This document shows positions 3 to 24,600 of a stretch of 27,063 bases of DNA, piece by piece. Under the pieces are notes generated by a model that was given only the letters and a program-made list of their open reading frames with translations, did no database searches and was not told the DNA's origin. Every line of letters begins with the position of its first letter. Within the stretch, counting starts at the first letter, position 1. Both the position numbers and the translations under genes were made by a program. This DNA comes from JAGLHV01 sp023143305 [NCBI: Clostridia bacterium] (GTDB lineage: Bacteria > CBDUZB01 > JAGLHV01): positions 1 to 27,063 of the forward strand of contig DAOVVV010000034.1 in NCBI GenBank assembly GCA_030637025.1, written 5' to 3'.

Positions 3-2321
3 GCGATAAAAGAAGTATCTATGCCGGAAGTTATGTTGGAGCTAAGCAAGGTAAGAGGAATAAAAGAGGCAGATATAAAGCAGTTAAGTATTGATACGGT
101 CAAAGAAATAACAGCGATATACGAAGGTAAAGCAGTTGTGGCAGCGGAGGGAAAGGTTTTTAAGGAAGTAGAAGTAAGCAGAGGCATACAGAATAATTTA
201 GGTTTGGATATATCCGGCCGTGAGTATCAGACGGGAATAGGGGATATAGCGCAGATAGTTTATGGCGGGGACATATCGCAGACGGTTTATAGCGGGAAGG
301 CGGGTACAGGAATCATCCCGAAGGTTTTATTGGAGATAAAGCAGATAGAAAGAAGTGGGAATATAGCAGTGAATATAGTTACGACTTCGGAAGGGAAAGC
401 AGTAATAGTCTTAAGTGTAAAAGAAGGAGTGAAGTTTAAAGTTAAAACGGTGAAGGAAGCTTTGAGCAATGTTAATGTTCGGGAGGTAATAGTAGATGTT
501 TCGTGTTTAAATAGGAGTGAGATAAAACAAGTGGAAGCAGAAGTAGTCAGAATAATAAATTTAAACAAGGATAAGCAGATTACCTTAATTTCCGAAACTC
601 AAGGGGAAATAGTAGTCCGGGTGTTTAATAATAAAAACATAAAAGGGGAAGTATGCCGTTTGCCGGAAAATGTTATGAACAATTTAAGATTGGACATAGA
701 AAATAATAATTATAAACAGGGATTAACAGATGTTGTTGATATCGTTTCTAATCAGGGAAAAGGGATAAATCGTCCTGTGGATATAACTATAAATTATGCG
801 AAAAATTTAGAGTCGAAAGGGTTGATTGTAAATCCAATAAATCCCAGAAAGGGTGTATTGGCTGTGACTACAAAGGGAAAAGTTTTTGATTTGGGAGCGA
901 TGGAAGAAGTTTTAGGTATTCCGGCCAGAGAGATAATTGTAGATTTTGCTAATATAAAAAGTAACAGGCAGCGGCAAAAAATTCAGGAAATGATAGTAGA
1001 AGCAAGAAATAATGATATAAATAAACAGATTACATTAATAGATACTTCCATAAAAGGAAAAGAGGGAATTATAAATTCTGACAATCATAATATTAATAAA
1101 CTTAATTTGCAGAAGGCAGAGGTTTTTATTCAGAATATAAGGGATGGATTAAAGATGAGGGAAATTGCTTTAATATTTAAAGATAGGGTTGTTGTAGAGG
1201 CTAAAACACCGGCAGGGACTATCTCACCAAAAACTCCAGGGGTTGGTGTTAATGCTGCTATGGCAGGGGTTCTGGGTGGAATAACGGCTTTTACCAGATT
1301 AGATGATTTAAAACAACTTCTTTTGGGTAAAGAAACGGGTATTACTATGGATATTTTAGAAGTAAAGGGTAAAATTAGCATGCTTAAACTCAAAGCAGCA
1401 ATTGATACAATTGATTTTAAATGGATAGAGGAAGAAAAAAAATGGCCTAACATAATACAATCGTTGGTGAAAACAGTTGTCCTTAATAGACGGGCAAGAG
1501 GTACTGTTTTGATAGAAGGACAGAAAAGGGTAGTAGCCATTTGCGGGGAAATATTGGCGAAATTACCGGTAGAGAGACATTCTGAAGCTTTACAAATGGC
1601 CCGGGATATTGATATATCACAAAATCGTTTTACTTTTCCTCACTTGAAAGAGGTTGCCAAAACGCTGGGAATGAAGACAATAATATTAAAAGATACGGCA
1701 AGTGAAAGTAAGCAGTTTAAGCAAATAAAGAAAATGGGAGATAGAACTTCTGATCCGATACTTATAACTATGCCGGGTCAACAAGTAAATGTTCAAGAAC
1801 GAATAAATAACTTGAAGAATAGGTTTCATGAAGAAGGTTATATGGATAAATCATTTGAAGGCGGGTTAGTAGTAACCAGCAGTAATCCGATAGTGATATC
1901 TTCAGATGTTAAAAATGTAGGAGTAGATTTTATGAACGCCTTACAGAAAAATATAGAGATAGCTGCCAGGAAAGGGTTTCAGGTGAGTAATGTTCAAGTG
2001 AAAGTAATAACTAAAGAAGGTTCTAAACAACAAGAGGTAATGAAGGCTCTTGAAGAAGATTTAAAGCAGGCAGGAATGAAGATTATTCCCAGATTTAGAG
2101 ATAAAACCAGGATTATTGTTTCTCAGATAAATAAACAAACTATGGCTAATCTTGTTCAAAACAAGGGGGGTATTAAGGTGGCAGATGCTCAACCACCAAT
2201 ACCATATATACCGGTACTTACTGATCATAAAGAATGGACCTCTAGAAAAGGGCCGAAAAATGTTTATATACTTAATGTCCCTGATATAGGGGGAATTACC
2301 GCAATAATCGGGTCTAATTAA
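3..2321 (+). CDS. C-terminal part of a large repeat-containing protein of unknown function (5' end outside window)
   Basis: The frame is open from base 3 and ends at TAA 2319-2321. An ATG at 21 exists, but what follows has no signal peptide, only a weak purine stretch precedes it, and it lies inside repeat-like sequence, so I read this as the 3' end of a longer gene. Two copies of an alpha/beta module of about 150-160 residues can be seen: the segments at 480-600 and 927-1040 match (RE-[VI]-I-VD, then helix, then K-QITLI), offset about 149 codons, and the N[LR]xLDI segments at 192-215 and 678-700 also match. An earlier partial copy seems to begin at the window edge. The part after about 1230 contains another set of alternating strands and helices, with no motif I recognise. 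There are no membrane helices and no catalytic signature. It is followed after 122 bases by a secreted-protein gene on the same strand. Function unknown; a scaffold or surface role is a guess from the repeats. Confidence 0.8.
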   Translation, partial: AIKEVSMPEVMLELSKVRGIKEADIKQLSIDTVKEITAIYEGKAVVAAEGKVFKEVEVSRGIQNNLGLDISGREYQTGIGDIAQIVYGGDISQTVYSGKAGTGIIPKVLLEIKQIERSGNIAVNIVTTSEGKAVIVLSVKEGVKFKVKTVKEALSNVNVREVIVDVSCLNRSEIKQVEAEVVRIINLNKDKQITLISETQGEIVVRVFNNKNIKGEVCRLPENVMNNLRLDIENNNYKQGLTDVVDIVSNQGKGINRPVDITINYAKNLESKGLIVNPINPRKGVLAVTTKGKVFDLGAMEEVLGIPAREIIVDFANIKSNRQRQKIQEMIVEARNNDINKQITLIDTSIKGKEGIINSDNHNINKLNLQKAEVFIQNIRDGLKMREIALIFKDRVVVEAKTPAGTISPKTPGVGVNAAMAGVLGGITAFTRLDDLKQLLLGKETGITMDILEVKGKISMLKLKAAIDTIDFKWIEEEKKWPNIIQSLVKTVVLNRRARGTVLIEGQKRVVAICGEILAKLPVERHSEALQMARDIDISQNRFTFPHLKEVAKTLGMKTIILKDTASESKQFKQIKKMGDRTSDPILITMPGQQVNVQERINNLKNRFHEEGYMDKSFEGGLVVTSSNPIVISSDVKNVGVDFMNALQKNIEIAARKGFQVSNVQVKVITKEGSKQQEVMKALEEDLKQAGMKIIPRFRDKTRIIVSQINKQTMANLVQNKGGIKVADAQPPIPYIPVLTDHKEWTSRKGPKNVYILNVPDIGGITAIIGSN
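180..1090 (+). repeat. Two diverged tandem alpha/beta protein modules
   Basis: Within the first coding region, about 180-650 and 650-1090 encode two diverged copies of the same module. Anchors are the NNLxLDI segments (offset 162 codons), the RE[VI]IVD segments at 480 and 927 (149 codons) and the KQITLI segments at 573 and 1023 (150 codons). The changing offset shows small indels between copies. The match is at protein level; the DNA has diverged. Confidence 0.65.
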
Positions 2322-2443: not shown

Positions 2444-3526
2444 ATGTTAAAATTGACTAAAAAAGAAAATAGTTTATTTTTTAAATTAATGGTAATAATG
2501 GTGATTTCTTCTTTTATGGTTACCTCTGTTCCTGAATATAGTTGGGCACATTTAAGCGGGATATTAATTACTGATTTTATTTCTTCTCAAAAGGTAGTGG
2601 GTGATTTATATCGTTTACCCCAACAGAGCAAATTGATTTTTCCTTCCTTTTTTATGCAACAAATAAACAATGAAGATTTAAAAAAAGAAATAAAACAAGC
2701 GGTTAATTTTATTTATATTAGCAGGAAATTATCCGGAGAAAATAATAAACTGTTTAATACTCAAGTATGTTTAAAGGGTATAAATGAAAAAATATATGCC
2801 ACAGCAGAAGAAAGCTCAAAAATTATCACAAAATTTTGCGAGCTTCATTTAAACGGTATTAAAAAATCTTTTAATTTAAGGTTGGAAAATAATTTTTTAC
2901 TAAAATATATAAAACCAATCTTTTTTAGTCCGAATTTGTCTTTGAATAAATGGGAAGACAATCTGATTATGCTTAAAAAGCTGGGATTGCCGGTAAATAT
3001 TTTGACTGTTTTATTTGGGGAAAGGATTTTTCTTTGTTCTTCACGATATGTGCTTCAAACAAAAAAAAGACTTGTTCTTAAGGGAAAAAAAAGGATAAAA
3101 CAAAAAACAAAAATAAAAGAATGGAAAAATAGAAATAATTTTTGTTTAAACAATTTTATTTTAACGGCTTTAAAGAATTCAAATAGTAAGAATAAATATA
3201 TTATTAATTTACCTCAGGGGATAAGGGGTTCTCCTAAAACAAGCATAATAAAAAAGATTAATCAACCGGAGGCAAAAGACGAAGAAGAAGGGGTTTTTCT
3301 GCAGTCAAAACAAATCTTTAGAAATTCAAAATTTCATTTATTTTTTAAGAGTATAACTAAACACACAAAAAGTATATTAAATAATTTTCCAAAAGCAAAC
3401 CAAATCATTAATAATAAATTCCAGAAAAAAATAACCATAAAATTTAAATACTTCCTGCATCAGCCAGGGAGTATTTTTAATATTAAATATAAAATTACTG
3501 ATTTATTTTTAAAAGGTAGATCATAA
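2444..3526 (+). CDS. Secreted, strongly basic protein of unknown function
   Basis: 360 residues. Residues 1-35 look like a Sec signal peptide: a Lys-rich start, a hydrophobic core at about 11-29 and the cleavage-like end PEYSWA before His36. The giant protein encoded next ends its signal peptide in the similar PNYAYA, and both mature N-termini soon show a Pro-x(4)-[KL]-x-x-Pro-x-Ser-Phe-like patch, so the two N-termini may be related. The rest is helical with no known motif; about 200-235 and the C-terminal third are very rich in Lys and Arg. No membrane helix is seen after the signal peptide. Codon use is AT-rich like its neighbours. The 16-base gap to the giant gene suggests co-transcription and co-translation. 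It could bind an acidic polymer or another part of the giant protein's complex; that is inference. I do not recognise a family. Confidence 0.8.
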   Translation: MLKLTKKENSLFFKLMVIMVISSFMVTSVPEYSWAHLSGILITDFISSQKVVGDLYRLPQQSKLIFPSFFMQQINNEDLKKEIKQAVNFIYISRKLSGENNKLFNTQVCLKGINEKIYATAEESSKIITKFCELHLNGIKKSFNLRLENNFLLKYIKPIFFSPNLSLNKWEDNLIMLKKLGLPVNILTVLFGERIFLCSSRYVLQTKKRLVLKGKKRIKQKTKIKEWKNRNNFCLNNFILTALKNSNSKNKYIINLPQGIRGSPKTSIIKKINQPEAKDEEEGVFLQSKQIFRNSKFHLFFKSITKHTKSILNNFPKANQIINNKFQKKITIKFKYFLHQPGSIFNIKYKITDLFLKGRS

Positions 3527-3542: not shown

Positions 3543-3653
3543 ATGTCTTTGATTCAAGGTGCGGACGGAAAATATAGATCGTGGATTAAAATAGTGGCAG
3601 GGTTAACTTTGAGTTTTTTTATTGCTACTTTTTTACCAAATTATGCGTATGCT
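3543..3653 (+). other. Signal peptide of the giant protein (residues 1-37)
   Basis: Residues 10-16 carry Lys and Arg, 15-31 form a hydrophobic core, and PNYAYA ends at Ala37 before Gln38, an AxA-type site for signal peptidase I. This predicts that the N-terminal domain is exported, or that the segment stays as an N-terminal anchor. Confidence 0.85.
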
Positions 3654-6600
3654 CAGGTGTCAATGTTGCCGCAGGCTATACCTTCGGATATGGCTTTGAA
3701 AGAGGTAATGATTAATCCTGAAAAATTAAAAGTTCCTACCAGTTTTGGTAAAATTGTAGATACTCATTGCGGGAAAGGCGATAAATTACTTATTTATATT
3801 CAGGATTTACATACTAATTATGAAGTGCAAACCAATATTTATAGTATTCTGGAAAATTTAACCGAAACTTACGATTTAAAGATAGTCGCCACAGAAGGAA
3901 CACAGGGAGAAATTGATACCTCCCTGCTTTCTACCTTTCCTTTGAAGAAAGTGAAAAAAGAAGTGGTGGAATTTTTTATGAGGAGGGGAGAAATAACCGG
4001 GCCGGAGTGTCTTTCTATAATGGGTCAAAAACCCCCTATTTTGTATGGTGTGGAAAAAAAGGAGTTATATCTTAAAAACTTAGGTTTGTATAAAAGTTCC
4101 CTGGATAGTAGAAAAAAATTGAGGGAATCATTAATTTCATTAGATAAAATAATTAAAGTTCTCCAGCAACAAATTTATTCTCCTGAAATTTTAAGATTAG
4201 TGGAAAAGGTTTCTTTGTATCAGAAAAACGAAATTTCTGTGGTTGATTTTGTTGGTTATTTGCAGGAAAGAGCTAAAGATACCAAGATAAATATAGAAAA
4301 AAGATTTAAAAATTTAGCGATATTAATAAAATTAATCCATTTAAGACAAAAATTAAATTCCGGTAAGAGCTTACAAATAGAAACAATGGCCATAGTATCA
4401 AGACTTTATGCAGTGATGAACGTTACGGAAATAAGAGGGTTGACCCGCAGAAGCCAGGAAAGCAAGGATTTAGAAAGTTATTATTTGTATTTAGAGAACT
4501 TAGCTAAGAAATATAAAGTTGATTTAAAATATTATTTTCCTTATTTAGCCAGTTATTTTGAATATATGGAACTTTCTCGCGGATTGAATAGTGTGAAGTT
4601 AGTAGAGGAGCAAATAAAATTAGTAGATGAATTGATTAATTTCTGGTGCAGGAATAAAGAAGAGAGAGAAATTATTCATTTGAGTAAAGTAATTGAAACA
4701 ATGAAGAAATTCATTGATATAAAGATGACCGGATGGGATATTGAATATTATCTAAAAAATAAGAAATTTTTTGACCGGGATAGAATTATAAATTTCTTAA
4801 AGAAAGAAATAAGAAAATATAAAAAGGAACCTTCTTCTGATATGCCTCCCGATGCTCTTCCTATGATTCTTGGCCGCTATGATTTGAATGAATTAGATGA
4901 TATACCGGATTTTAAAGAAGTCCTTACTACCAGTGAAGAATATTATGCTACCGCAGTTGGTAGAAATAAGTTCCTCCTGGAAAATAGTTTAAAAAAGATG
5001 GAGGCAGAAGAAAATTCCGTAATTGCTCTGGTTACCGGAGGTTTTCATACCCCGGGAATAACCAAACTGGCTAAAGAAAAAGGCCTTTCTTATGTGGTTG
5101 TTTCTCCGAATGTTACTCAGGCAGTAGATAGTAAGAGATATTTTGCTCTTTTAGAAGGGAAGGAAACCCCGTATAAAGATTTATTACTGGAACAAAGTGA
5201 ACTTTTACTTGCTCTTGCTTCCAAATTTATCGGTAAGGAATTTACCAGAAAGATAGCTTTTCTGATTACTAATTCCTTGATTAAAATGTATAAAAATAAA
5301 GATTGGTCAATGGAGGATATAAAAACTGAAATTGAAAATGTTTTTAACCGGACAAATGTGGAAAATGTGGAAAATTCTAAATTTCAGTTTCAGTGGGTAG
5401 AGGAATTAACCCAAAAAGATACAACCAGGGAAGTATATTCATTTAAGGTATTTGAAAATGACACCATAAAAAATGAGGGGATAAAAAGTATTTTGGCAAG
5501 CCGTATAATTATAGAAGGGGAAAAGAGATGGGAGACTAACTTTATAGATTCAAAAGAAGCTGAGGGGAATTTATCTGAAATAAAAATGGAAAAGATAAGA
5601 ATACAGAATTCCCTTAGAGGCCAGTTAGGTTTGTGGATTAGTGGTTCAATTAATTTCTTGAAAAGGGGCATGCAGATGCAATATTTTATGCATCTGGCAG
5701 GAAGAGTACAGGAAAGGGTTAAACAACAAATTATCGCCCAGGGAACCCTGGTTAACCTGGTTAAAAATACCTCCGCTTTACTTTTTTCTGCCTCGGCAGA
5801 TGTTGTTCTGGTAAAAGAAGAAATGATTGCTGAAGTACCTGGAGTGGAAGAAAAAGTGGGTGAGGTAAAAGTAGTGGAAGCGGAAGTTCCTGATGTAGAA
5901 GTGGCTGAAGTGCCGGATGTAAAAGTAGTAGAAGTTCCTGAAGTGGCAGAGAAAGTAGATGAAGTGGTGGAAGTAGTACCGCTGATTATACCTGTTATGA
6001 CTACCAGAGAATTGGGTAATGTTTCTTCTTTATATCAGGTAAAAGACCTTTATCAACAGCCCCTGCAGGATTTTCATGTTCCACCTTCTACCATTTCTGA
6101 GCAGGAGATGAGAGTAGAGGCAGAACAGGGTAAAATACTTATTCAACAGGGGAAATTTAATATTCTTAAACGTATTTCTCAGGCAAGAGGAATGAGGCTG
6201 GAAGGATATATTGAAGAATACGCCGTGGGAAAAATAAAGGGACGGCAAAATATGGCTAAAATACTTTCCGGAGTAATAATTAATCTGTTTCAATCTCTGG
6301 AAAATAAACTTAGTTCATCTAAAAAGGAATACTGGGATATTTTAGAAAAAATCAGTCAGGGGGAAATGGATTTTAATTCGGAGGAATTTTGGAATTTTAT
6401 GGCGGGAAATGACAACAGTGCGGAAATTTGGAAACTTATGCGTAGCGAAATAGCTAAGGCTTATGGTGCGGAAATATGGGCTAAAGAAAAAAATATTTCG
6501 ATAGAACAAGCAGAGCAGGAGATTTTAAAAGAAGTATTAAGCCCGATGGTGGATGGATTAACTGAGGAAATTAAAGCTGATTTAAGGCAGACAGGAGGAG

Positions 6601-9600
6601 AATTTACCGATAGTATTTTATATAAAGCACAGCTTAATCTTGATTTTGCTTATATGATTGATAATGCTGCTTTTGCCAAGGGTTTATATGAGGTGCAGGA
6701 TTTAGCGGCTGCTTATATGGCTAAAGATGGCGGTAGCTTTGTGGAAGTGCGTACGGGTGGAGGTAAGACCCTGATTGGTATGTTACCGGCTTATTTGATA
6801 GCCCTTAAAGGGGAAACTTGTCTTTTTATAACTAGAGATGCTACTCTGGTAAATCAATTTATAAAAGATAACCAAAATATTGCAGCTATTTTAGGGGTTG
6901 ATATGGAAGGATTCCTGAGGGAAGGTTCTGAAAATGTCAAAAAAGCGGATACCCCGGAAATTCAGCGTGAAATATTGAATGTTACTCCGGAAAATCAGGC
7001 AATAAGGAGAGGAAAGATTGTAGTTACTACTAGCCCTGATGTAGCTTTTACCGTGGGTTCGGATATGAAACTGAGTGAAAATGAAAAGGTTTTTCCCAAA
7101 GAATTTATATTTAATTTAATTTTTGATGAAGTAGATATGTCCGCAGCAACCCAGGCTACTATGGCTTATGTAGAAGCTTTGATGGCTGAGCCCCTCAACA
7201 AAGGGGAATTAAAAAGAGGTGTTTTTGCCGATTGGCTGGCTGTAGAATTAATCGGAGAAGGCGTAGATGAAATTCATAAAGCAGTAATAAAAGCTTATGA
7301 AAAAGGAGAAGAGCGTGAATTTTTGACTAAAGGAGGATTGGTACGAATTAATCTAACTGCGGGCAGAAAGGGCAGTCTAACGATAGCTCCGGAGGCAGAA
7401 TCTGTAATTAAGCAGTGTTATGATACGGCCCAGGAACAGGGATTAAGTTTAGGTAAATATAAAAAGTTCAGACAGATGGTAGAAGATCAGCTTACTGCTC
7501 AACTTTTACGAAAGAGTGATGAACAGTATGCATTTGAGAAAGTGGACGGTCAAATAGAAAGCAAATGTATTGAACCGGCTACAGGTGCCCGGACTAATCA
7601 ACGGGAACAAAGGATTCAGACTGCTATAGAAATTAAAGAATATAGAGCGGGAAATTTTAAGGGACAGGTCCTGGGAGAATCTCAGACCAATAATAGCCTT
7701 ACCATTCATTCTCTTATTGCTTTGGCTGTTAAATCGGGTGGTTTGGTGACGGGAATGAGCGGAACTTTCGGTAAGACAGTAACGGATGAGTTAGCTAAAA
7801 TAACAGGGAAAAAACTTTCACAGATCGGAATAGAGGTTCCTAGTCATTATGAAAGTGTGGTTGTAGACGAGGGTTTTATTTCCGGGGATACGGATTCTTC
7901 TACTATGGAAAGTATTATTAATTGGATTACTATGATAAAGAATGACAGAAAAGGGGCACCGATGTTGATGGCTTTAAATTCGGACAATACTACCCAGTGG
8001 ATAATAGAACAGATTAAAGAAGCGGTTAGTCTGGAGAAGTTTGCTTACAAAAATATTAAAGTGATTGGAGCAGAAACTGTTGTGGAGAAAATGGAAGAAC
8101 TGGAGCAGAACCGTTCTTCAGACACCTTGTTTGTTTATACGGTTACTGCTGCGACTACTGATTCCCAGATAGAACATATTCGTAAATATGGCGGACAGCC
8201 GGATACTTTACTTATCGGAGGAAAGACTATCGGGCGGGGTTTTGATGCTGGTTTTAAGACCATTAATGTTGAAGAAATCGGTCAACAGATAAAAACGATG
8301 TTGTTCGAAGCAGGAATATTCGAAGCAGAAATAGCGGAGGAAAAAGCAGCGGGTATTATTTTATTAATGGAAGAAATGCTCAATGATTTAAGAGCTGAGC
8401 GAAATATGGATATACGAAAAGAAAAAATTGAAAATATTAAAACATATTTTGATACAGTGCGTAATTTGTTAAAAGAAGGGGGAGTTAGCCTGGAGGTATT
8501 AGCTGAGTTTGAAACAATGGAACGACGGATATTTGCCCGGGAAGTATATGGTTTTCAGGGAGTTAATCAGTGTGATGATCTAACTTCTGGAGAAAGACGT
8601 CAAAGACAAGGACGGGTTGGCCGTCAAAGTGAGGCCGGTTCGACATGCGAATTAGTTTGTTATCAAAAAGGAGAAAGTAAATTTGGTGATATGATAGATT
8701 TTGAACGGGGGATAGAAGCTCCGTTGGGTGGAGTAATGGAAATGGGTAACGTCTTTAAATCTTTGTTAGCCGGAAAAATTAGTTTAAAAGAAACGTTTAT
8801 TCAGTTTGCACAAACTTCGTTTGTAGATAAATTGAAAGGATTTATATTGGGTGAAAATTCCGCTGAAGCGGCTTTTCGCAGGATGAATAGTTTAATAAAA
8901 GAATACAAACAACTTATTCAAGATCAAGGGAAAATAATAGAAAAAATTAAAGTCTCAGTCGGAGAGCAGGAAAAATCAGAATTAGAGCAACAATTAAAGG
9001 ACGTAAATGGAAAGATGGCAGGGATTAATAAGAAAGCAATTGCCCTTAAAATATATGCAGTAGATAGATTAGAAAGAAGTGATTCCCACTACCGTTTAGC
9101 TACCAGAAAGCGTAGTCTTTTTGCTACCCGGGTTTATGAAAAAATAGAAAAGTCCCGTAAGAATATTCTTAAAGCGGAAGTTACTAAATTAAACATTATT
9201 CAGCGTATTATTCAGGGTTTAAGGATAAGACAATTTTTTAGCCAGGAAGCTTTAGTCAGATTATTTATTAAAGATGAAATTAAGGATTACCGCAAAATGG
9301 CTAAAGAGATAGAAGATCCGGTTAAACGCAGTGAAATTTATCAACAGATGATTAGCCGTTTGGAAAAAGGATTAAATATAAAAGAAGGTGAACTTGCTGC
9401 GGAGTTGACTGAGGAAGCGTTGTTGTTTAAAAAATTAAAGACGAAAAAACTGGTAAATATGATTACGGAAAAGCTTATTGAGCAGAGGGGAGAGGAAAAT
9501 ATTTTTTATGTCGATGAACAAACCAATACCGGTGTTCTGGATGATGCTTTTAATTCGGTTAAAGCCCAGTATATCAGCTATGCGGAAAGCCAGCAGCACA

Positions 9601-12600
9601 AGAATATGGCTGTTCCTCTGCTTGCGGAGTTAATTAAAGTACAAATTTATAAAATAATACTCACTTATCGTTATCAAAGGGATATGCGCAGGATTGTTTC
9701 CCGGATGAGCCAGACAATGAGAGAGGGATTGGATAAAACCATAGAGACGGAAAGTTTGGGTAAAAAAAATATGGAAGTAGATGTAAATGCAGTTATTAGG
9801 AATGTTTCCGCAGGGATGACCGATGCTTTGAAAATAAGTGAATTAATGGCCGGTAAAGAAGAACGCAGTTTAAAAACACGGGTAGGAAAGGGTTTAGATA
9901 ACGCGGCTAAATTGTTTGCTGATTTTATGTGGCGAGCCCGGGGAAGATTATTAGGTGAAATTAAAGAACGGGTAGTTACCGTAGCGGAAAAGCGTGAAAT
10001 GGCGGCAGGTATACCCATGGTAATGGGACAGGCAGGTAAATCCCATACCGGAATAAAGGTTGCTGATTATAGAAAGGTGAATACTGACCAGATAGAGCGA
10101 GAAAAAGAATGGATGGAAAATAATCAAGTAACCCTGGATTTACAAGCTGGCTTAAAAGCAGAGGGATTTTTTGTGACTATGCCGGAAGAAAAAGTAGCAG
10201 AGGTAGCAGAAGAAAAACCAGTGGAAGTAGAAAAACCCGCAGAGGTAGTTACAGAAGTTCCTGGTGAGGGTCCTGAGATTCCCGAGGAAATCGTTCCTTT
10301 TGATACTAAAATAATTGCTCATTTTCAGGGGGAGACTGACCAAATAAATAAAGATTTGAATAATATTCAAACAGCTATTGAGGGGTTAGATATAGAGTTA
10401 GAAACAGAGGAAGTTAATAAAGTTTATCAGCAATTAAGTGAAATTCGGACAAAGATTTCCAGCTTAAGGCGCGAATATAAAACTATGGAAGTACCGGAAG
10501 ATTTAAGCAAAGATATTCAGTCATCATTAGAAAAAATAGGGACGGTTATCAGTACTCTGGATAATCAGGCAATTAAATTAAATAATGAATTGGATGATAA
10601 AACCGGAGCCCACATAGTTCCTTCCCGTTTTGATGTAAAGAATATTATTAGAAAAATTGACGGGAGGGTTTTAACTTTTACTCAAAATCTTGCTTCAAGC
10701 AAATTAGGCAAACCGGTTTTTGGACTTTCTTTAGGGGTGGTATTTGCCGGGTTTCTTTTTATTCTTTTTAATGGTTTATCTTTTGGTATGTTGCCTATTT
10801 TAGCTTTAGTTTTTACTCCGCTAACTATTTTATTTTCTTTCTTTAAAAAGGAGTCGGGAACTACTTTTCCTGCCCAGCCTAAAAAAGGAGCATTGGGTAA
10901 ATTAATGAATATTAGTGAAAAAGTTAAAGAGGTTATTGGCGGTACTCCCGGAAAGCCGGCTTCATGGACTAACCTTTTTATTTCAGGAATAACTTTAATT
11001 GCTTTCGGAATTAGTTTAGGTTTTGGCCCGGCTGTTCTTTTAACTGCAGGAACAGCTGTTTCTGCCGGAGTAAGTATGATGGGTTTTGGGTTCAGTCCTA
11101 TAATCTTCATTTTTATAACCAATGCTATATTACAGAAAACCAAATTTCTGGATAAGCTTGCCGATAAAATAAGCGGCCTGTTAGGTATTCGTAAAGCAAA
11201 AATAGAAAACAAAAAAGGCTTTGAAAATCTGAGATTACGGATGGAAGAAAATATTCGCCAAAACAAGGAAAATGTTCCTTTACCAATAGAACAGTTAGAA
11301 AAACAGGCAAGGATTATTGCTTTTGGGGGGGAGGAAATAGCGGAGGAAAAATTAACCCCGGCAATGAAGGAACAGTACCGGAATGTTCTCAAAGGTTTGG
11401 AAACATATTGGCGCAGTGTGGAAAGAGAGCTTTTGAAAGAAGCAATTAGTCAAAGTGAAAAAGATATTTCTCATGCGGCTGAGGTAAATAAAGCGGTAAA
11501 CGATGAGGCAATTGCCGCTTTTTGTGGTTTGAGAGTGAATTTCCAAAGAATTAAAGAAAAAAAGACATTACGACCCGATAATGAAAAATTAGAAGAGTTC
11601 GCTGTACAAATAGCTGCAGCTGAATTGGAAAAAGATGTTTCAGTAGGGGTGGTAAATGCCCGAGTTGAGGAGGTTCTGCCATATTTAAAAGAATATTGGT
11701 TTGAGGCTGAAGAGGAGGTCTTAACCGGGAAAATTGCTCAGGCTAAAGCAGATTTGGGTAATATAGTAAAAATAGCCGGAGAAGAGCAATTGGAATTAAT
11801 TGCTTCCAACGCTGTTCAACGTGCCCGGGCAGGGGAAAATGCACAAGCTTTAGAGTTATTGCAACAACGATTTGAAGAAAACAGAAAAATTTCTCAGCTT
11901 ACTCCCCAAAAATTAGCAAAAAGGCAAAAAACAATATGGGCAAACGTTGCCCTTAAATTGGGGTATCAACCGGGAGAAGAACTTTATCTCCAAATAAATA
12001 AGGCTTTACAACAATACTGGGTAAGTATAGAAGGGGAATTATTGCAATCAGCCATTAAACAAAGCCAGGAAGATATTACCCGTGCTTCTGCATTAAACAA
12101 AGCAGTAAATGATGTGGCTATTGCTGCTGTTTGCGGATTAGAAACCAGTCTGGAAAGAAGCCGGCAGAAAGAAACCTTACCTTCTGCGGAACAATTACAA
12201 AAACTAGCCGTAGATATAGTTAATGTTGAACTTAAGGAAGATGTTTCAGCTCAGGAAAGAAATGCCCGAATAGTAGAAGTGGTTCAATATTTAAAAATGT
12301 ACTGGTTTGATGCTCAACAAAAGCTTTTATCCAAAAGAATTGCTCTGGCAAGGGGGGATCTGGATAATATTGTAGACATAGCTAAAGCCCCTCAGGAAGA
12401 GTTAATTGCTCAATATGCCAGTCAGCTGGCACAGGCAAAAGAAGGGGTTGCCTTAAAAGAAAAAATAAAAAGATTAGCTACTTATATTGAACAGGAATTA
12501 GCTGAGTGGTCCATTCAAACAGAACTAGAGTTTATTTCAAAATCACAGGAAGATTTAATTGCTTTAGTAAACAAAGCAGAATATTTAACCGATAAAACAA

Positions 12601-15600
12601 AAGAAAATCATATTAACCAAATTAATCAAAAAGTTGCTCAGTTAGAGCAAGCAAGAACAGTACAACCGGAGGAAACGGTAGAGGAAGTAGTAACACCAGC
12701 GGAAGTAGATGTGAAAAAGAAAGTAACTATTGCACAGATTATAGGGGATGTTTTTGATGGGGCTTTGCGTCCATTCAATGCTTTGCATTGGGAAATAGAA
12801 GAGGGGGTAGTAGATGCGATTATTGCCGGACTGGGGTTAAAGCAAAAGGAGGTTAGCTTAACGGCAAAGCAAAGAGAAAAGGTAGTTAATGCCCTGGAAT
12901 TATTAAAAAGAGAATTTCCGGAATTGGAAAATAAAGAATTATCCGGTGCTATACAAAAAGAATTGGATGGGTTAATTAATAATCCGGAAGAGTTGAAAGT
13001 AGTCGAAGGTAAGTGGTTTATTATGGATGAGTCTAATACGCTTAAAGCCTGGGTAGGGGCATTTTTAAATGGACCGTATGTATTTATTTTAAAGGCCATG
13101 ATTAAAGGAGCGACAGAAAAACAATTAGCCGGGGCTATCTTACATGAGTTGTTGGAAGTGCAGGGAATAGAGCATGAGCCGGCAAAAAAAATTGTAGATA
13201 GGTTTATAGTCGGTGAGGAAGCTATTGAAGAACGGATGGAAAAGATTGCAATACTGGAGGCGGCAGGTTTTAAAACAACTAATCAAGAGATATTAAAATT
13301 AAGTATAAAGGAAATAAAGGAAAGAATTGCTCTTTTAAATGAATTAAAAGAATCAGGAGTAAAAGTATCGATTGGTTGGTTAACATATGCGCCGGTTACA
13401 TTGAAAGAGTGGGTAGAAGCGTTGGTGGAAATGGGTATTACTTATGCTCAGATTACTTCGAAGTTAATTATTATTCAGAGTTATATCCAGCGGCTGGCTG
13501 AAGGAGAAGATGTTGGGGAAGAACTAAATAATAAAATTGTCCGGTTAAGTGAACAGCCGGAAAATGAACAGATAGTAAATAAGTTGAAGGGAAGAGTTCA
13601 GCAGCTAATTCCTGAAGCAGTGGAAAAAGTCGAAGATGATATTGAAGAGATAAAAAATAAGATAAAAAGTTTGCCGGACGAAGAAAAACATTATATCCCA
13701 ATAACAATATCAGACACGAAAGATGTTAAATTTCTTTTAACCCGGGAAGATTATGCGGCGGGGATGAAAGTAAGTGAAGGGGGCATGCTTAGTTTATTAA
13801 GTAAAGCATTAAGCCTGGAGAAAGAATTATATTTTGGTATATATTATGAGCCATTAAATGAAGAAATTGTATTATCACTTCTTGACCAACCCCACTATTT
13901 CTCCGAGGAGCATGGGAAGAATGGTTTTATCGGAATAAACAAATCCATAGTTGAAATCAAAGATGAAAAAATACGCAATATAGTTTTGATAGTAGCTTTA
14001 ATGCACGAGTTAAGGTATGAAGTAACCGGGCGGGATGACGATGCTTTTGAGCAGGAACAATTAGCCTGGGACATTCAATTGACCCTTTCTTTATTAAATG
14101 AAGAAGGAATTTTATTAGATGATTATATTAAGACACTGGGATTATTAGATAAAGAAACTCCGTATTTAAGAGGACTGCAACAATTTCCTTATAAATATTT
14201 TGTAGAAGTATTATCAAGGACATTTGAAAGAGATGAAACTATTATCGGACAAATATTTGATAATTTTTCCGGGGATATTAATTTTGAAAAATTAACGGAA
14301 AATATTTTTAAAATGATTAAGGAATTAGAAACATTAACCGATATTGAAAAAACTGATCTTGATAAATATGAAAAATTCTCCCGGCTTTCTCTGGAAATGT
14401 TGGTAGCCATTGTACCGGCTTTGAAAGAAAACTGTCAACAACTGGATAGAGTAATAAAAGGAAAAGTAAAACCGGCAAAGGTAGATATTATTGAATTAGT
14501 TGATTCAGTAATAGAGGCAAATAAAATAAGTAATGTTAATGTATTATTACCTGAGGGGGATAATTTACCCCAAATAGAGGGATTTAGTGATTACATAGAA
14601 CAAACATTAGTTGAATTAATAACTAATGCTAATGAACATGGGGCAAGAAATATCGAGGTAACTATTTTAAAAGCCATACATCCCCAGACTAGAGAAGAAG
14701 GGATCCAAATTAAAATAAAAGATGATGGGAGGGGGATTAATTCTGAAGATCAAAAAAATATATTTAACAAGGGATTCAGGGGTGATGTAGAAGTTGGGGA
14801 AGGAAAGAAAATTACGGGTACAGGGTTAGGTTTGCATTATGCTAAAAGATTTATAGAAGAGTTATACCGGGGGGATATTAGGGTCAGTAGTGAAGGCAGG
14901 GATATTAATAAATGGGAAGCAGGGAAGGGAAATGGAAGTACCTTTAATTTGACTTTATTTGATATCGACAAGGAACGGGATTATCAAGAATATCGCTATG
15001 AGCTTGTTGTTTCTATAATTCATAATATAGGTAACAATCTCACCGTTTTAAAAGAATCTGCTGCAATGTTATATGAAAGTAAAGAAGATGATAAATTGTT
15101 TTTAGGGATAAAAAACAAGGTGGAAGACATTATTACCTACATAAAAATATTTATGGTAATGAGAGATCAAACTACTTTAAAAACGAGGCTTGAAGAAACA
15201 TGGAAAGAAGAACCGGTAACGGAAAAAAGATTTCCATTTATAGCTTTAACCTCTTTCTTAGTAAGTATATTTAGTGTGTTTGGACTTGTTGGTATAGCTA
15301 TGGCAGAATCGGGAGTTGTAACAAATGTTGTTTCCGGAATATCTTTATTAGGGATAAGTGTACCGGGGATAGTAATTGGAGGTATAGGTATAGCTCTGGG
15401 TGTATTAGGGTTGAGATGGATACTAAAAAGGATAAAGGAAAGAGCGGATAAAGAAAGAATAAAAATAGAAGCACCCCCGGTCATTGAAAAGCTCAGTAAC
15501 GAAGAAGCAGGAGCAATAGTTAATAATGCGGCTATTCTAAGTAATAAGGAAAGAGCTTATAATGAGGATATAGATGTTTTGCCTGTAAAAGTTAGGCCAA

Positions 15601-18600
15601 AAGAAATGAGAGAATTATTAAAGAGTGAAGTATTTCGGCCAAAATATCAATATAAAATTGGCAAATATACGATTTATTTATCCAATTCTTATAAGAGTGA
15701 TAAAATTACCGACCGGGAGTCAGTTGTAGCATATATTAAAAGTCCGGACGGTAAAATTGTAATAAGGTCTTTTTACTGCTCTTTATCTTTAGGATTGTGG
15801 CATAGTGCCAGTCATTTTGGGCAGCCCGGAAGCCCTTTATGGATTGGAAAAGGTATGACAGCTTTTAAATTTTCTACTCAGTTACCAATACAGATGCAAA
15901 AGGTGCTTTTTGATATTCGTTCTCAAGTTGGGTTTGCTCAAGAAGTCAGCGGAGAGGAAGCAAAGAAAGTTTTTTACGGTGCGTTACAATATTTAATTCC
16001 TACAGAATACGAAAAAGAATTGGAAGGAATTTCTGAAGGAATTAGAGACATGATCAGAGATGTGCCTGAAAGTAGAAAAGTATTGGATTCTCAAAAAGGA
16101 ATGCACATAAAACCGGAAGATTTAAAGATTAAAAGTAAAAAACTTAGACCGGATTTCAGTAAATTAATAACCAGATTTGAAGTCAGGTTAAATCCGGAAC
16201 TTTATAAAGAGGGAATAGGTGAAGCCTATGTTTTTTATTCTAACGATAAAAAATTACAGTATCTGTTTTTAAGGGATACTTCCGGGAATGTGTGGTTGGG
16301 AACGATTGATTTTATAGAGGAGGATATTAACAATTTTGGGATAAGAAGGGTTATGTATAATCCTCTTGATTTAAGTAAACCGCCGTACGAATATTATGAC
16401 AATATTCCGGAGGGATATATAGGAGAACGGAAATCTGGAAGTTATTATGAGGTTATAAATTATCATCGTAACGTTTCGATTTTAAATGAAGCGAAGAAAG
16501 TGATAGAAGAGAGAAGTAAAGAAAGAACATGGGATGAATGGAAGAATATTTTCCGGGGAGAGGGTGTTGAAATTATACAAATGGAACCTGTTAGTGTTGA
16601 TGGTTCTGAAGTTTTAACAGAGGGAGATGCCCGGAGAAGACTGGCAACATATACTTTGGAAATAGATGCAGATAAAATCACCGCAATCGAAAAAATATTT
16701 GAAGAAATCGCAGTAATTGAAAAATACATTTCAGAAATTAAACAAAAGAACGTGAAGGAAATAGCAGCAGATTATAAGTCGTGGAATATAGATAAATTAG
16801 AAAATAAATTAAATGAAATTTTAAAAACGGGTAAACTGGATGATAAAGATTTAGACAAAAAAGTATTAGAAGAAGTTAAAGTAAATATAGATAAAATTAA
16901 ACAAATTAAAAATAGCATTAACCATGAATTAAATGTTAATCGGATTAAAACAATTGAGCAAGAAATAGAAAAAATCAGTAAACAAATTAGTGAAGAAATC
17001 AGTAAAGAATCGGAGTTTGTTTATTTAATGGATGTTAATGCTTTTAATAAATTCAACGAAACACTGGAAACAATCGATAGTAAAAGGCTGGAACTTATAA
17101 ATGTTAAAAAGCCCTTATTAGAAGAAAGTAGCATTCAGCAATTAAGGGAGTTTAGAAATCGCGTTAGGGATGAAAAAAGGTTGATAAAACAAAGCCTTGA
17201 CCTTTCTGTTGATGAACGGCAAATATTTATTGGCTGGTACTTATTTAATGAATATTATGAATTATATAAGGAAGACGATAAGCATGAGCAATTAATGCAA
17301 AATGTTAAGTTTGTTGAAAGATTAATTGCCTTAAATAAAGAAAATGATATTCCGGCAAAAGAAAAAGAATTATTTGCTTTGATTAGTGAGTTAAGAGCCA
17401 GAGGTATAAATGAGGAAATTTATAAGCAGGTGCAGAAAGTTAGAGCAAGGCATATAGAGCAAAAACAATCAGTTCAGGATTCTTTAAATATCATGATCAA
17501 TCAAATGAATGTAATAAGCGGTCAGCCGGAAGAATTATTACGGGATTTAAAAAGTAAGGAATCTACGGTAAAAGTTTTAGAGGAAAAAGCATTAGTTGAA
17601 TTTAAAAGTGATTCGGAAAAATTTGCTTTGTTTAGTAAAAAGAAAACTATTTCGAAAGTTGGAAAAGATGATTACTTTCAGCAACACCTGGCCACACATG
17701 CTAAACATTTTTTCGGAGAGGCAGAGCCGCTTAATGCAAGGCAATATAGAGAACTTATTGAGCAAATAAAACAAAAAGCGGATATGTGGTTTATCTCTTT
17801 TGATGAAAATGGAGTAAAAAGATATAACTATTATGAACAGGGACATAATGTTTTATTAATAATAACAGAATACAGAGACTCAAATCCATTATTTATAAGT
17901 TGTTATCCGGTTACTTCCGATAGAGTGGGAGAGCTTTTAAAGAGAGAAAAAACCTATGTTGTATCTGATTTGAGGGAAGAAAAAGAACCGGTAAAGGGGA
18001 AAAGATTTTCTACTACAGTCTTAATTTTTTTATTAGTAAGCATAGTCAGTTTTTTTGGACTTGGTGGTATAGCCATTGCAGAATCGGAAGGTTTAACAGG
18101 TGTTGTTTCCGGAATATCTTTATTAGGGGCAAGTTTACCCTGGATAGGAATTGGATTATTAGGTATAGGGATGGATGTATTGGGGTTGATATGGATGCGA
18201 GAAAGGATAAAGGCTCTACCTACATTTTTGACTCCAAAAATAATTGCTGGGTTCGGAGGAGGTATTGGGAGGATTGAGAAAAAATTAATAAGGGTTTCTA
18301 TTGCTATGAATACAAGGTCAGAAGATGAAGAGAGTGAAAATAAAATAATTAGTGGAATGTATAAAAATTTGAAGAAAATTCAGACTCAAATTTCCGCACT
18401 TAACCGTAAATATCAGGCTGTAGAAATTCCCGCGGGTGTGAGTGAAGAACTTAAGGAGGCATTTAAAGATATTGGAGTTAGATTAACTAATGTCAATAAT
18501 CAGGCAATTGACTTAAATAGGCAGCTTGATGAAAGAAGAGGACCTATAGAAGTTAAGCCCCCGGTCGAAAAAGAAGTGAAAGTCAAGCCGGAAGTTGTTA

Positions 18601-21600
18601 CTACCGAGATAAAAGATTTGGTGAAAAAATTTTATGTAACAGGTTTACTTTTGGGAATATATATTCTTGGTTCCTTCATATTACTTCCCGGATTTAATAG
18701 CGCAGTTCCGGAGCAAATGAATTTGTTTTCTTTTTTCTTTAAAATATCTTTAGAAATGTTAACCGAGCAAGGGGATGTTGTCGGATTAATATCTCTTTTT
18801 TCCGGTGGAAGTATGGCTTCTATTTTTGCTATGGGTCTGTTGCCGTATTTTCTTGCTTCCACGGCAATTCAATTAGGAAGCTTTGTTTTTCCGGGAATAA
18901 AGAGAAGGATAAGCCAGGGAGATGCGGGAAAAGAACGACTGGAAAAATATACCCGATATTTAGCTTTAGGGATAGCAGTTTTTCAGGCGATAATAATGGT
19001 GAATTACTTAATGCCTTTTATGGTAGGTGCGGCATTAATACTTAAATTATCTACGGCTGTATCTTTAATTGTCGGGACTGCTTTTATTATGGGGATAAGC
19101 GAGCAAATAGGAAAAAGAGGCCTGGTTAAAAGAGGCAGTTTACTGGTAATAAGTGTAGGGATGTTAACCAGTATGGTATTTACTTTATTTAGCGGTCCTA
19201 TAGCAATGGCTGCGATATTTTTCGTAGCAATTGCCGTTCCTTTAGCTATAGTTATTCATAAGGTGCATTATAAAATTCCGGTCAGATTTGCTCCGCTTGC
19301 CCGTAAGGAAGCGAAAGAGAAGATGGGGTTTTTGCCTTTAAAGCTGGATACTGCCGGGGTAAGTGCGATTATTATTACTATGTCTTTTCTGATGGTAGGA
19401 TCGATGATTTCTACTGTTTTTATGGGGGCAGGGGCTATTACTATTGGGCCGAATTTAATGACCGCTATTACAGGGATAATGATATTTTTCTTTTCTTATG
19501 TAGGTACGACCAGGGTACAGATGAATGTAAAAGATCTGGTCAAGGATTTTTTACGGGGAGGAAAAATCATTCCCGGTGTTGCCCCTGGTGTGCAAACAGG
19601 GGAATACATAAAAAAGACAATAAATAGAGTGGGGTTTTTAGGTGCTTTATTGGTTACTGCCATTACTATTGCCCCAGCGGCGTTAGGGATTGGGACTTAT
19701 GCTTTAGGAATGACTATTTTAATTTCCACTCTGGTTTTCTTAGAAATTTTCAATCAGATAAGGGTTGCCTGGTCCAGTTTAAAAGTAGCTACACCCGAAG
19801 TGGTTGAAGCAGAAGAAACAGCGGAGAGGAAAAGCATCAAGTATTTAGTTGTGGCAGCAAGTGGATTATTGGGGCTGGTTAGTTTATTTTATTTAGCTTT
19901 ACCCTCTTTAGTAGACATACTTACCATGGAAATTACTTCCACACTTTTTCTGGTAGTAGGAACGGCTGTTTTGATGGGCGTGTTGTTTTTTAATTTAACT
20001 TCTTTCGGCCAACAGATTTTAAAAAACAGAGCCAGGAAAATATCTATACTCAGAGAGAAAGCAGACATAATAGATGTATTAAGGGAGAAGTATGCCGGAA
20101 AGAGCAATGAGCAATTATTGGCAGAAGCTGAGCGGTTAAGAGGGTTATTTACTCCTGAAATGACCGATGAAGAGGCGGTCAAAATACTGGAATCAATGGA
20201 CGAAGACGGTATACCGATTAAGCTGAAGGGTATTGCCTTAGCTATGACTAATATTGAACGAACTTCCCGGGAAAGTGCAGTGGAATCAGCTATTGAATGG
20301 TTAGAAAAAGATACAGAGTCGATGACGGATAAAGCAATAAAATTAGCCATTAAGCAGGCGAAGGGAAATAATGGGGAAGCATCCCAAAAAGTAGTAGATT
20401 TAGTTTTGTTTAAAATAAATAAAAAATTAGAGCAAAAGATAAGTGTACATGAAAGATTGAAATTAGAAGAAGAAATAGGAAAGATTGAGAGGAAATGGAA
20501 TTTCACTTTTAATCCCAATCAGGTATTTACTGCCCTGGCTTTGTTAGAGCGGGAAATTAAAGAAAAAACATTACTTGGTGATTGGTCAGGGAGGATACAG
20601 GGGTGGATTACTCCCAGCGACTTAATGCAGAAAATAGTAGGCAATTATGTTCAGCTACCCGGGGGAGAAGGGAAAACCCAGGTAGCTGCGAGTGCTTTAT
20701 TTACAGCATCTTTAGCCGGCCGGGGCAGTCAGTTATTAACATCGCATAAAAATCTGGCTAAGTCGCAAGGGAAAGAGATGGCTATGTGTTTAGCGCGTTT
20801 AGGGACCAGTGTGAGTGTTGTAGGAGCCGAGTATGATGAGCAGGGAAGGCAGGTGCATTATGTATATAAACTGAAAGAATTGGGTAAAGATAAGGTTAAG
20901 GTTGAATTGGTTAAAACTACTGATGTGGAAGTAGCTTATAATGAATGTGATATTACTTATAGTGATGAAGCTACGGCTAATCATCTAAGGCAGATGCACT
21001 TTTTAAATTTGCGTCCTTCTTTTTACGCTGCTTACGATGAAGGAGATGCGATTTTTAAAACTACTTCTCCCAGGAAAATATCCGCAGGAGCAGAAGGGGA
21101 AACATGGAGTAATGAGAATATAATTGCTTTAAGAAAACTCTTTTTAGAAGATGGATTAAGGGAAGGTGATTTTAAATTGGATTTCCGGGGGGATGGAAGG
21201 ATCAGGCTTACCGGAAATGGACAGGCTCAATTAAAGAGAATAATTAAAAATGAACAGCAAGCGGAAAAAATTATTAACTATTTCAGAGAAAATGGTTTAC
21301 CGGAAAAATTTGTTTTTGGGATGCTGGTAAAAAGGTTAAAACAAGCTCAGGAACGGAGAGAAGGGGAATATTTTAAGGTAAATTATGAGGAAAAAGAAGA
21401 AGTAGTAGAATTAACCTCTGCCGGCAGGGAGATAATCGAACGGAATTATTTAGGGCTTCCTTTAGATTTATCACTTACCCAGTTGGATATAATTCATTCC
21501 CATTGTTTACACGCGGCAATGCAGGCGGAATTTTTCTTCAGGCGTCACAGTAAAGAAGCAGTGGAAGAAGCAAAAAAGCAGGCTGAAGAAATAGGTGCCC

Positions 21601-24600
21601 CTCAGGTTCAGCAGTTAAAGTGGTATGACCTGGCATGGGTAAAGGATGCACAGGGGAATGATATTGTAGCCTTAGGCCCGATTAATCCGCTTAGCGGAGC
21701 ATGGGAAAGAACGCAAGTAGCAGGAGGCATTCATCAGGCGATGGAAATTGCCGTAGTATTAGATAGAGTAGAAAGGGAAGAAGTGGTTGCTAAATTTAAA
21801 TTAACCGATGAGGGAGATACCTTCAGTCAATGGACTATTCAGCAATATACTCAACAGCATTTCTGGATGGGGGCTTTATCTGCTACCGGGACAGAAGATA
21901 GAGGGTTTGAGAAAGAATTAAAGAGAGATTATGGCCTGGCTATGGTAGATATTCCCCAGGATAAAGCAGTGAGTTTAAATAGGGATAAATATGAAAATGG
22001 TTATTTTATGAAAATAAAAGACCAGATTAGTTATATTAGTGGGCTTATTGGGGAACATTGTAATATAGGCGGGATATTTGTAGTTGCTTATACCGAGGAA
22101 AAAATGATGCAGATTTTTGCGGAAGTTAAACATTCCCTGGAGAAAAAGGCTGAATGTGCCACTATTGAACCTCCGGATGTATCTCTTAGTCCGGATGAGT
22201 TTGATAAAGAGCTTATAGCTAAAATTTCCCGGGCACAGAAAGTAGAACCAGGTAAACTTACTTTATGTAAGTTAGCCAGTGGAACTACTGATGAACAGAT
22301 AGATGCTATTGCCGAGATAGGTAAATTACCCGGGGTAATAATATTTACAACTGCACGCGGTTCCAGGGGATTTAGTGTAATGGGTAAGAAAATGTTGATG
22401 ATTGAAGCGGAACTGGCACAAAGTCCGGCTGATACTATTCAGTCTTTTCGCCGGGTAGCCAGGCAGGGAGAAGAAGGTTTTGGGGTACAGGTGTTTAGTT
22501 TTGAGGATTCCGGATTATTTACCAAATATGCAAAAGGATTTGTAAAGAAGTATTTAACAAAAGGAAAAGAAGGGAACTTATTTGGAACGACCCTGGGGAC
22601 GTTATTAGAGAATATGATTAGAAAAGAAATACAGCTTACTATTGGGCTTAAACAATTATCGGAAAGAATGTTTTTTACCAAATATTATAAGACTACCCAT
22701 AAAAACAATTTAAAAGTTTATCAGTGGCAGGAAAAGATTGGGGATGCCTCTGACAGACAGATAAACAGATATGTAGAGAGATTAATTGAAATGCAGATAA
22801 GTAGTTTAAGTGGTAAGTATGCATCTTCCAAGGGAATAAAAGAAGTATTAAATGAAATAATAGCAAGGAGCGTAGAGGAATACACCTTGACCCAAAACCC
22901 CGAATTTTGGAAATTGGAGAAATTAGAAAGAGGTTTAATTAATTTATTTCCTCAGGAAAAAGATGAATTAAATGAAGTTTTCGCAGAGATAAAAATGGTG
23001 GTGGAAAGTCGTAAAGGTCCTCTGGATAATCGCGCTTTGTTTGCTTTAAGAAAAAAGGTAATTAAAAAATTGGAAGGATTTGTTGCTCAATTGGATGATG
23101 AGGTTTTAATAGAAAGAGGGCGGTATTTATTAACGAGGCAATTAATTGGTTTGGGGTTACCTCCAAAAGAAGTAGAAAAAATAGTTTCTTCGGAAGATTA
23201 TCGGGAAATGGTTGAAGGAACCGGTGACAGGTTAAGTAATAATTTATTGTTTTTAGTTAAGGACGGATATAAGGCAGGGATTGAGGTAGGGGATTTTTCT
23301 GTAGAACAAATAAAGCAGATGTTGGTTAATGTAATTAGTAAAGAGAGAATAAATTATTTAACTACAGTTGATGTGGCAATGCAAAAAGTACAATTGCTTG
23401 CTTATGCAGGAGAAGAACCTTTAGGGGAATTTAATTTTGAAGTCAACAAAAATTTTCAGGAATATACTCAGAAGGTAGTAAGAAGGGTTTTTAAAACGGT
23501 TTTTATCAACAGGATGAGAAAAGAGGAGAAACCTATTTCTTTTGCTCAGGGGATTAAAAGAATAGAAAAATTACCCACATTAAAAAGAGTTATTTTTATA
23601 GAAGGGGCTGCTCAAATCCGGGATTGTTATCAATATCGTCTCCACGGTGTGGCCGGGGAAAAATTTTTATATGAATCCCTGGAGGATTTAGGGATTAAGG
23701 AATTAAAGGAAATTTTTGCCGTACCGGAAAAAATAAAAGAAGAAATCGTAGCTGAGGGGATAGAACAAACAATTTATTCAATGCCGGAAAGAGTTATTTC
23801 CCAGGAAGTAAATTTAGATGTTGATAGAAACAAAGATATAAGGGATGCTTTAGCCAGGAGAATAACTCCTTTATCCGGGCAGTTCACAGCAGAGAATATC
23901 GGTGCGGTGGAAATAGCCGGTTTTGGAAAAACTACCAGTCCGTTGACAATAGTAAGAGTGAATAACCCTGAAAAAATTGATTCTACTGTATTGCAATGGG
24001 TGGAAGAAAGATTAGCTTTGATAAATTCAAACAGCAAATTGGTATTTGTTTATGCCGGAAGTAAAGAATCATTGAGAATGAAGAAAGGGGTTACGGCAAA
24101 AGTTTATTCTCTGGTAAAGAAAGAAAATAGAAAGCTGAAGGTGAAAGAATCAGTACCCATGTATTTTTATGATGTATTTAATGAGAAAATATCCGATGAA
24201 ATGCCGCGATTGGGAATTGTTTCCGTAATACTGTGGTCAGTCGGCCGGTGGATTTCAGGGATTTCTATTCGTTCTCCGGGAATGGCTTTAAGACGTATCT
24301 TTAGTGAATTGGGACTGGAAAATTTACGGGAAGCAGGAATTATCCGCACAGTCTATAGTTTCTTTTCTCTTTTTGCTTTAGCCGGCGGGCTTATGGTTGG
24401 ATTGGCTCAGAGTGTAGCGGCAAGTGATGAGGTAGCAGTTCCGGTAACGGAAGAAGAAGTAATAGAAGAAGTTCCCGGAATAGAAATAGCAGAAATAGAG
24501 GAAGAAGAAATAATTACACCTGAACCTACGGAAGAGCCCACAGAAATACCTGCGGAAGAGCCGACAGAAATACCTACAGAAGAGCCGACGGAAATACCCA

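Follow-up and report, generated by a model that had tools for sequence, protein, structure and literature searches.

A SecY Homologue and a SecA-Like ATPase Fused in One Giant Open Reading Frame of a Clostridia Bacterium

Described Sec systems and the fused locus

SecY and SecA form an ancient pair and are normally separate proteins. In this study, we analysed 27,063 nucleotides of a Clostridia bacterium genome (assembly GCA_030637025.1, contig DAOVVV010000034.1; this whole stretch is hereafter the window), in which relatives of the two share one unbroken frame of the plus strand (window 18606-23520). An initial annotation had placed SecY and SecA in a single polypeptide, and this fusion is confirmed as a real observation; the title given to it there, a SecY channel and a SecA motor fused, is supported at the level of sequence. 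The pair takes up part of a giant open reading frame (ORF), which also encodes a second SecA-like ATPase and a histidine-kinase-type ATPase domain.

Compared with the ordinary Sec translocase, the locus retains a full-length SecY match, SecA pieces in order, the ATPase motifs, and the charge topology, but it is one chain rather than two genes, carries two extra helices, and misses family cut-offs. Among the variants described so far, which are compared here through parts of the cited texts, the accessory SecA2/SecY2 system exports serine-rich repeat adhesins (PMC6973325). Like the present locus it adds a second SecY and SecA to the ordinary pair, with large surface proteins as possible clients; yet its components are separate genes, and here the SecY2 model (84.8 bits) scores below the SecY model (139.2 bits). 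Membership of that system was rejected, with 84.8 bits against an equivalog cut-off of 249.6 for SecY2 and 39.5 against 930 for SecA2. In vitro, an engineered T. thermophilus SecY-(GGSG)4-SecA carries out protein translocation when SecE and SecG are present (PMC5562318); it likewise has SecY and then SecA in one chain, but joined by a man-made flexible linker, whereas here the connection is made by two membrane helices and the host protein is a giant. Giant ORFs are known from Omnitrophota, with a role in predation or attachment under discussion (PMC10066038), and have been described as common in Omnitrophota, Elusimicrobia, and CG03 (PMC12057145). They resemble the present frame in being very long, with many membrane helices and few annotated domains, but in the available parts of the two papers neither SecY nor SecA is named for them (PMC10066038; PMC12057145). 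Secondary SecA_DEAD proteins of the Planctomycetes-Verrucomicrobia-Chlamydiae group similarly occur beside an ordinary SecA; however, they have no SecA_SW or a small piece of it, whereas the window has a SecA_SW-like part and SecY (PMC4452313). We found no report of a natural SecY-SecA fusion in the open-licence PMC literature on SecA/SecY, giant ORFs or proteins, and fusions, as far as its accessible parts go.

The two halves and their relatives

For comparison we used three genomes of the window's phylum (G001, G002, and G003, the last from the same genus but another species) and one of a different phylum, G495. The SecY half matches the Pfam SecY family with 153.4 bits (gathering score 32.2; expectation value, E, 1.2e-44) over profile positions 1-305 of 306, and solved SecY chains over nearly their full length (best E 9.7e-34). 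The full ten-helix SecY annotated at 18606-19790 thus stands, its start at 18606 included, and so do the two helices proposed between SecY and SecA, which correspond to two hydrophobic segments at 19833-20009. On a profile of 32 ordinary SecYs (mutual identity at least 39.1%) the fused SecY scores 182.7 bits, and it is 27.1-32.0% identical to the individual members. The lysine and arginine residues of its loops, counted with segment bounds set by eye on the G001 SecY, number 29 on the cytosolic versus 1 on the periplasmic side; the three fusions have 29 v 1, 31 v 3, and 22 v 2, and the ordinary SecYs 24-30 v 2-10.

Like the SecY half, the SecA half is diverged. SecA_DEAD is recognized with 41.5 bits (gathering score 24.6; E 1.3e-10) and SecA_SW, reaching to about 23504, with 24.1 bits, just under its gathering score of 26.7 (E 4.4e-5); SecA_PP_bind is not among the Pfam matches listed for the window's fused SecA. 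A profile of 19 ordinary SecAs aligns in firm, ordered pieces (profile positions 100-314, 347-435, and 708-819) plus a doubtful one, while single-sequence searches of solved structures return weak pieces in the correct order (best whole-sequence E 6.4e-4). The ATPase motifs are given in table 1; where the window has LPGGEGKT (Walker A), DEGD (DEAD-type), and RRVARQG (motif VI), G003 keeps GGEGKT, DEGD, and RxxRQG. The SecA annotated at 20043-22590 is therefore upheld as a match but not in its end, which cuts the protein after motif VI: since the SecA_SW match and the likeness to G003 and G495 continue beyond 22590, the true end lies about 0.9 kb farther on.

In G003 the fusion lies on a contig of 7,290 bases, open in a single frame from end to end; SecY again precedes SecA, and SecY and SecA_DEAD both exceed the Pfam gathering scores. 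This contig is JAUVLC010000116.1 of Clostridia bacterium isolate CSMAG_496, a record containing the two fetched G003 stretches; the CSMAG name is also used in a cold-seep genome catalogue (PMC10491686). The fusions of the two species are 60% and 52% identical. The ratio of nonsynonymous to synonymous substitution rates (dN/dS) is 0.22 for SecY (393 codons), 0.19 and 0.21 for the SecA core (458 and 200 codons), 0.30 for the scaffold part (219 aligned codons), and 0.18 for the stretch before the ATPase core (184 codons; dS 3.2), all being rough because dS exceeds 1 in most stretches. These values indicate purifying selection on both halves. The extra helices give 0.48 (85 codons); they are alike in G003 (84 bits) and recur in G495 by hydropathy only, with no sequence likeness. 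The stretch before the ATPase core is the least conserved of the six counted, with 35% identity to G003 over its 184 codons. DNA of G001 is 100% identical to the window over 6,694 and 4,618 bases, and the SecY-SecA stretch was not found in the G001 or G002 assemblies, no G001 contig covering it. An ordinary SecY is present in all three genomes of the phylum, and an ordinary SecA in G001 and G003 (frames of 883 and 893 amino acids) and, in a 246-amino-acid frame, in G002; the ordinary pair looked for elsewhere was thus recovered in G001 and G003. Because ordinary SecY and SecA also occur in these sister genomes, the fusion is an addition.

A further fusion was recovered with the fused SecA alone as query in the phylum of another genome, G287, where 1 of 384 genomes, G495, matched at E 1e-6 or better. 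Here SecY (126.3 bits) is followed by SecA_DEAD (37.9 bits), both above the Pfam gathering scores and in the same order as in the window, within a 20,415-codon stop-to-stop frame whose two ends lie inside the contig. With G003 and G495, two further assemblies have an intact junction. The motors of the window and of G003 score 213-226 summed bits against that of G495, and the three reach at most 97 (window), 150 (G003), and 104 (G495) bits against the 19 ordinary SecAs. Judged by these scores, each fused motor is most closely related to the other fused motors, and the domain that follows SecA in all three is alike in G495 as well (63.9 bits). The SecY halves behave differently: they score 82-91 bits against that of G495 (82 for the window), while the G495 SecY gives 73-108 bits with the 32 ordinary SecYs and so is no closer to the window's, and the window SecY gives 102-160 bits with every one of them, above its score to G495. 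Trees group the three fused SecYs (support 99/97) and the three fused motors (100/99), both with very long branches and the SecA tree with long-branch warnings. A single origin for the fusion as a whole is likely, not proven. With this caution about long branches the trees agree with it; the SecY halves show no special closeness, and shared descent is argued only by the SecA half (213-226 bits, against at most 150 with ordinary SecAs) and by the domain that follows it.

The fusion appears to be rare. Within the window's phylum it occurs in one of the three genomes, and a domain-wide draw of 290 genomes, which included those three and scored no more than two candidates in each, returned the same G003 alone among the matches listed. 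None of ten chosen genomes had it, nine of them from other groups carrying the N-terminal domain of the giant ORF and the tenth being G002. Three overlapping draws of 384 genomes round G287 and G495 each yielded one full-length motor of the fused type, always that of G495. With a three-row alignment as query, 162 of 384 genomes matched at E 1e-6 and 27 at E 1e-12; in the other 161 and 26 the SecA matches were partial and weaker (up to 68.2 bits in the matches listed), many of them in frames of ordinary SecA length. Stretches round eleven such matches from ten genomes were fetched. Among 829 frames from all loci collected by then, scanned in overlapping pieces of 1,500 residues, SecY and SecA share a frame only at the window, G003, and G495 loci. 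SecA-like ATPases do occur in long frames with no SecY in the fetched stretch in G002, G287, G474, G577, G529, G349, G595, G413, G613, and G565, some of which (G529, G349) are covered in part, so that a SecY elsewhere in them is possible. In G002 (C301, locus L128) such a giant frame has, after a stretch shared with the window, a different SecA-like part (amino acids 2242-2732) with SecA_DEAD, SecA_PP_bind, and P-loop_SecA matches. Overall, the SecY-SecA pair seems to be an uncommon case within a broader class of motor-acquiring giant ORFs.

An origin from mobile elements was also considered and is unsupported by the viral, plasmid, and phage collections. With the fused-SecA alignment, 48 stretches of viral contigs match the pattern and none is a relative. 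None of 76 matching plasmid records or 14 phage records covers more than 80% of the query; among the matches listed, coverage is 28-29% in plasmids and 29% in phages, in the SecY part.

A putative translocase module and its alternatives

With a confidence somewhat above even, we read the locus as a natural SecY-SecA fusion that forms a translocase module inside a giant membrane protein. On this reading the module is real and under selection; it is probably a device dedicated to export or insertion, and probably an extra one, given the ordinary SecY and SecA of the sister genomes. Following the charge pattern, SecY would be an inner-membrane protein with a cytosolic N-terminus, and the two extra helices would return the chain to the cytosol; an N-in SecY followed by an even number of helices would place SecA in the cytosol on its own channel. 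There the tethered SecA may dock and spend ATP to push a chain through, a fixed 1:1 tether taking the place of SecA recruitment. The likeliest client would be the giant protein family itself, with its long exported stretches. That the fused geometry is feasible is suggested by the engineered protein, which moves protein in vitro when SecE and SecG are supplied (PMC5562318). A covalent joining of the two in nature would lock one channel and one motor into a fixed unit, which bears on the debate over SecA copy number (PMC10465204, in the parts available, where the engineered fusion is discussed as well). It would also provide a first mechanistic entry to the question of how bacterial proteins of 8,000-20,000 residues reach or cross a membrane.

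Several observations weigh against this interpretation, besides the roughness of the substitution ratios. The NCBIfam equivalog cut-offs are missed by both SecY (TIGR00967, 139.2 vs 253.6 bits) and SecA (TIGR00963, 29.4 vs 800 bits), and 19 of the 48 columns invariant in the 32 ordinary SecYs are changed in the window (29 kept; 28 in G003), against a baseline in which an ordinary SecY left out of the set loses at most 5 of 53; for these reasons, activity as a channel and as a motor is something we only infer. The arginine of the PGIRPG loop of SecY is needed for the work of SecA; it is replaced by Ala in the window and by Met in G003, and the motif is gone in G495. The Walker A motif of G495 ends in Lys, not Thr, and the SecE family is absent from the Pfam matches of the window's giant frame. 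What precedes SecY also conflicts with an N-in orientation: after a signal-like N-terminus, a count by eye gives an odd number of hydrophobic segments (a single one in G495; one and four further pairs in the window). The fusion was found in only two genomes among those searched, and structure models from two-row alignments (window and L009) were unusable, with predicted local distance difference test scores of 34.9 for SecY and 32.7 for SecA.

The strongest alternative, rather unlikely in our judgement, is domestication without transport, with SecY kept as an anchor in the membrane and SecA as a general-purpose ATPase or a mechanical element, so that the pair would move no proteins. SecA-like ATPases with no SecY found beside them stand in other long frames, so motors are common building blocks there, and the many changed SecY invariants and the missed cut-offs agree with such a history; it leaves unexplained, however, the SecY-SecA order in two phyla and a dN/dS of about 0.2 in both halves within the genus, and the ATPase motifs are kept. 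It seems improbable that the giant chain is a polyprotein, cut after synthesis so that SecY and SecA work individually, as parts of an additional Sec system. Four internal lipobox-like sites lie in the 20,415-codon frame of G495 (C94, L131-L134), where shuffling gives a mean of 0.03 and a maximum of 1, but the window's two AxA-type sites (amino acids 37 and 4846) are no more than shuffling yields (mean 0.31, maximum 2), no called site of the window lies between SecY and SecA, the sole lipobox-like call in L009 sits within a SecY helix, and the halves are joined through two membrane helices. Still less probable, to the point of being far-fetched, is a device used outside its producer, the giant protein being exported and the module acting in or across the membrane of another cell in predation or symbiosis: the signal-like N-terminus kept in the window and G003, the odd number of preceding segments, which would invert SecY, and the discussion of Omnitrophota giant ORFs as predation or attachment factors (PMC10066038, in part) would suit it, yet the fused SecY has the ordinary N-in charge pattern, several ATP-using domains require cytosol-like surroundings, and direct evidence is nil. 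A chimeric assembly or decayed gene, to which the metagenome-derived, fragmented sister assemblies and the missing stretch in G001 and G002 might point, is hardly credible in view of 7,840 codons without a stop (simulated maximum 208), the fusions of G003 and G495, and purifying selection.

Returning to the translocase module, a broader version would have the giant proteins carry their own export machine, a SecY-SecA fusion passing other stretches of its own giant chain, or sister giants, through the membrane, as an inherited module shared between phyla, while giant ORFs grew by uptake of whole genes with their signal peptides; this we regard as speculative and, taken as a whole, unlikely. In G495 C94, another large frame with a like start lies just after the 20,415-codon frame, and together with the lipobox-like sites it suggests growth by taking up whole genes.

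Layout of the giant frame

The longest stop-free run of the window measures 7,850 codons, a length that contrasts with the 208 codons reached at most when the window was simulated 200 times under a first-order Markov model, and the giant ORF exceeds 20 kb (23.5 kb so far, its end not reached). Its features are collected in table 1.

Table 1. Features of the window in and around the fused SecY-SecA pair
Feature	Coordinates	Strand	Remarks
ORF tail	3-2321		Open at first bases of window
Small ORF	2444-3526
GGGAGG stretch, likely ribosome site	Immediately 5' of ATG 3543
Giant ORF	3543..27062	+	At least 7,840 codons; ATG 3543; still open at window end
Signal-peptide-like N-terminal segment	3543..3653	+	Hydrophobicity; AxA-type site, end AYA; same in G003 C178
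First SecA-like ATPase (N-motor)	6654..8642	+	SecA_DEAD at amino acids 1038-1198, E 1e-11; end set by motif
HATPase_c, histidine-kinase-type ATPase domain	14589-14957 (amino acids 3683-3805)	+	Pfam, E 2.6e-16
Hydrophobic pair before SecY	18000..18197	+	Positive flanks
SecY homologue	18606..19787	+	Ten membrane segments
Two extra hydrophobic segments	19833..20009	+	Between SecY and SecA
Helical N-terminal stretch of SecA part	20010..20612	+	Between extra helices and Walker A
SecA nucleotide-binding and preprotein-binding part	20613..22592	+
SecA motif LPGGEGKT	20655-20678
SecA motif YDEGD	From 21033
SecA motif GGIHQAMEIA	From 21723
SecA motif ALSATG	From 21873
SecA motif RGSRGF
SecA motif RRVARQGEEG (motif VI)	22449-22478
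SecA wing/scaffold part	22593..23522	+	Pfam SecA_SW, profile matches, weak solved-structure piece
Domain after SecA	23775..24278	+	Common to window, G003, and G495

The first SecA-like ATPase, with the motifs VRTGGGKT, FDEVD, and GRVGRQ, also occurs in G003 (C178), and it matches the ordinary-SecA profile firmly in the first nucleotide-binding part only. Farther along, a tandem repeat coding proline-threonine-glutamate (window 24524-24679) follows a signal-like hydrophobic segment at about 24351; PT repeats of the giant frame give a Pfam match just below the gathering score. A stretch with HELLE and HELRYE motifs (window 12934-14166, also L068) matches G003 C178 in parts at four places, and one part of it lies directly 5' of SecY in L009; module order thus differs between species. 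At the place matching the window's first ORF, G003 (L067 3040-15747) has an ORF of 4,235 amino acids with a weak DEAD-box match, below cut-off. Since the start of the window's first ORF is likewise not reached, another large ORF may lie just upstream. The signal-like segment is followed by a domain (window 3543-5600 for the two together) that is present in 11 of the 290 genomes, where the frames often run to thousands of residues and reach 24,620 amino acids; it is a possible hallmark of a giant-ORF class.

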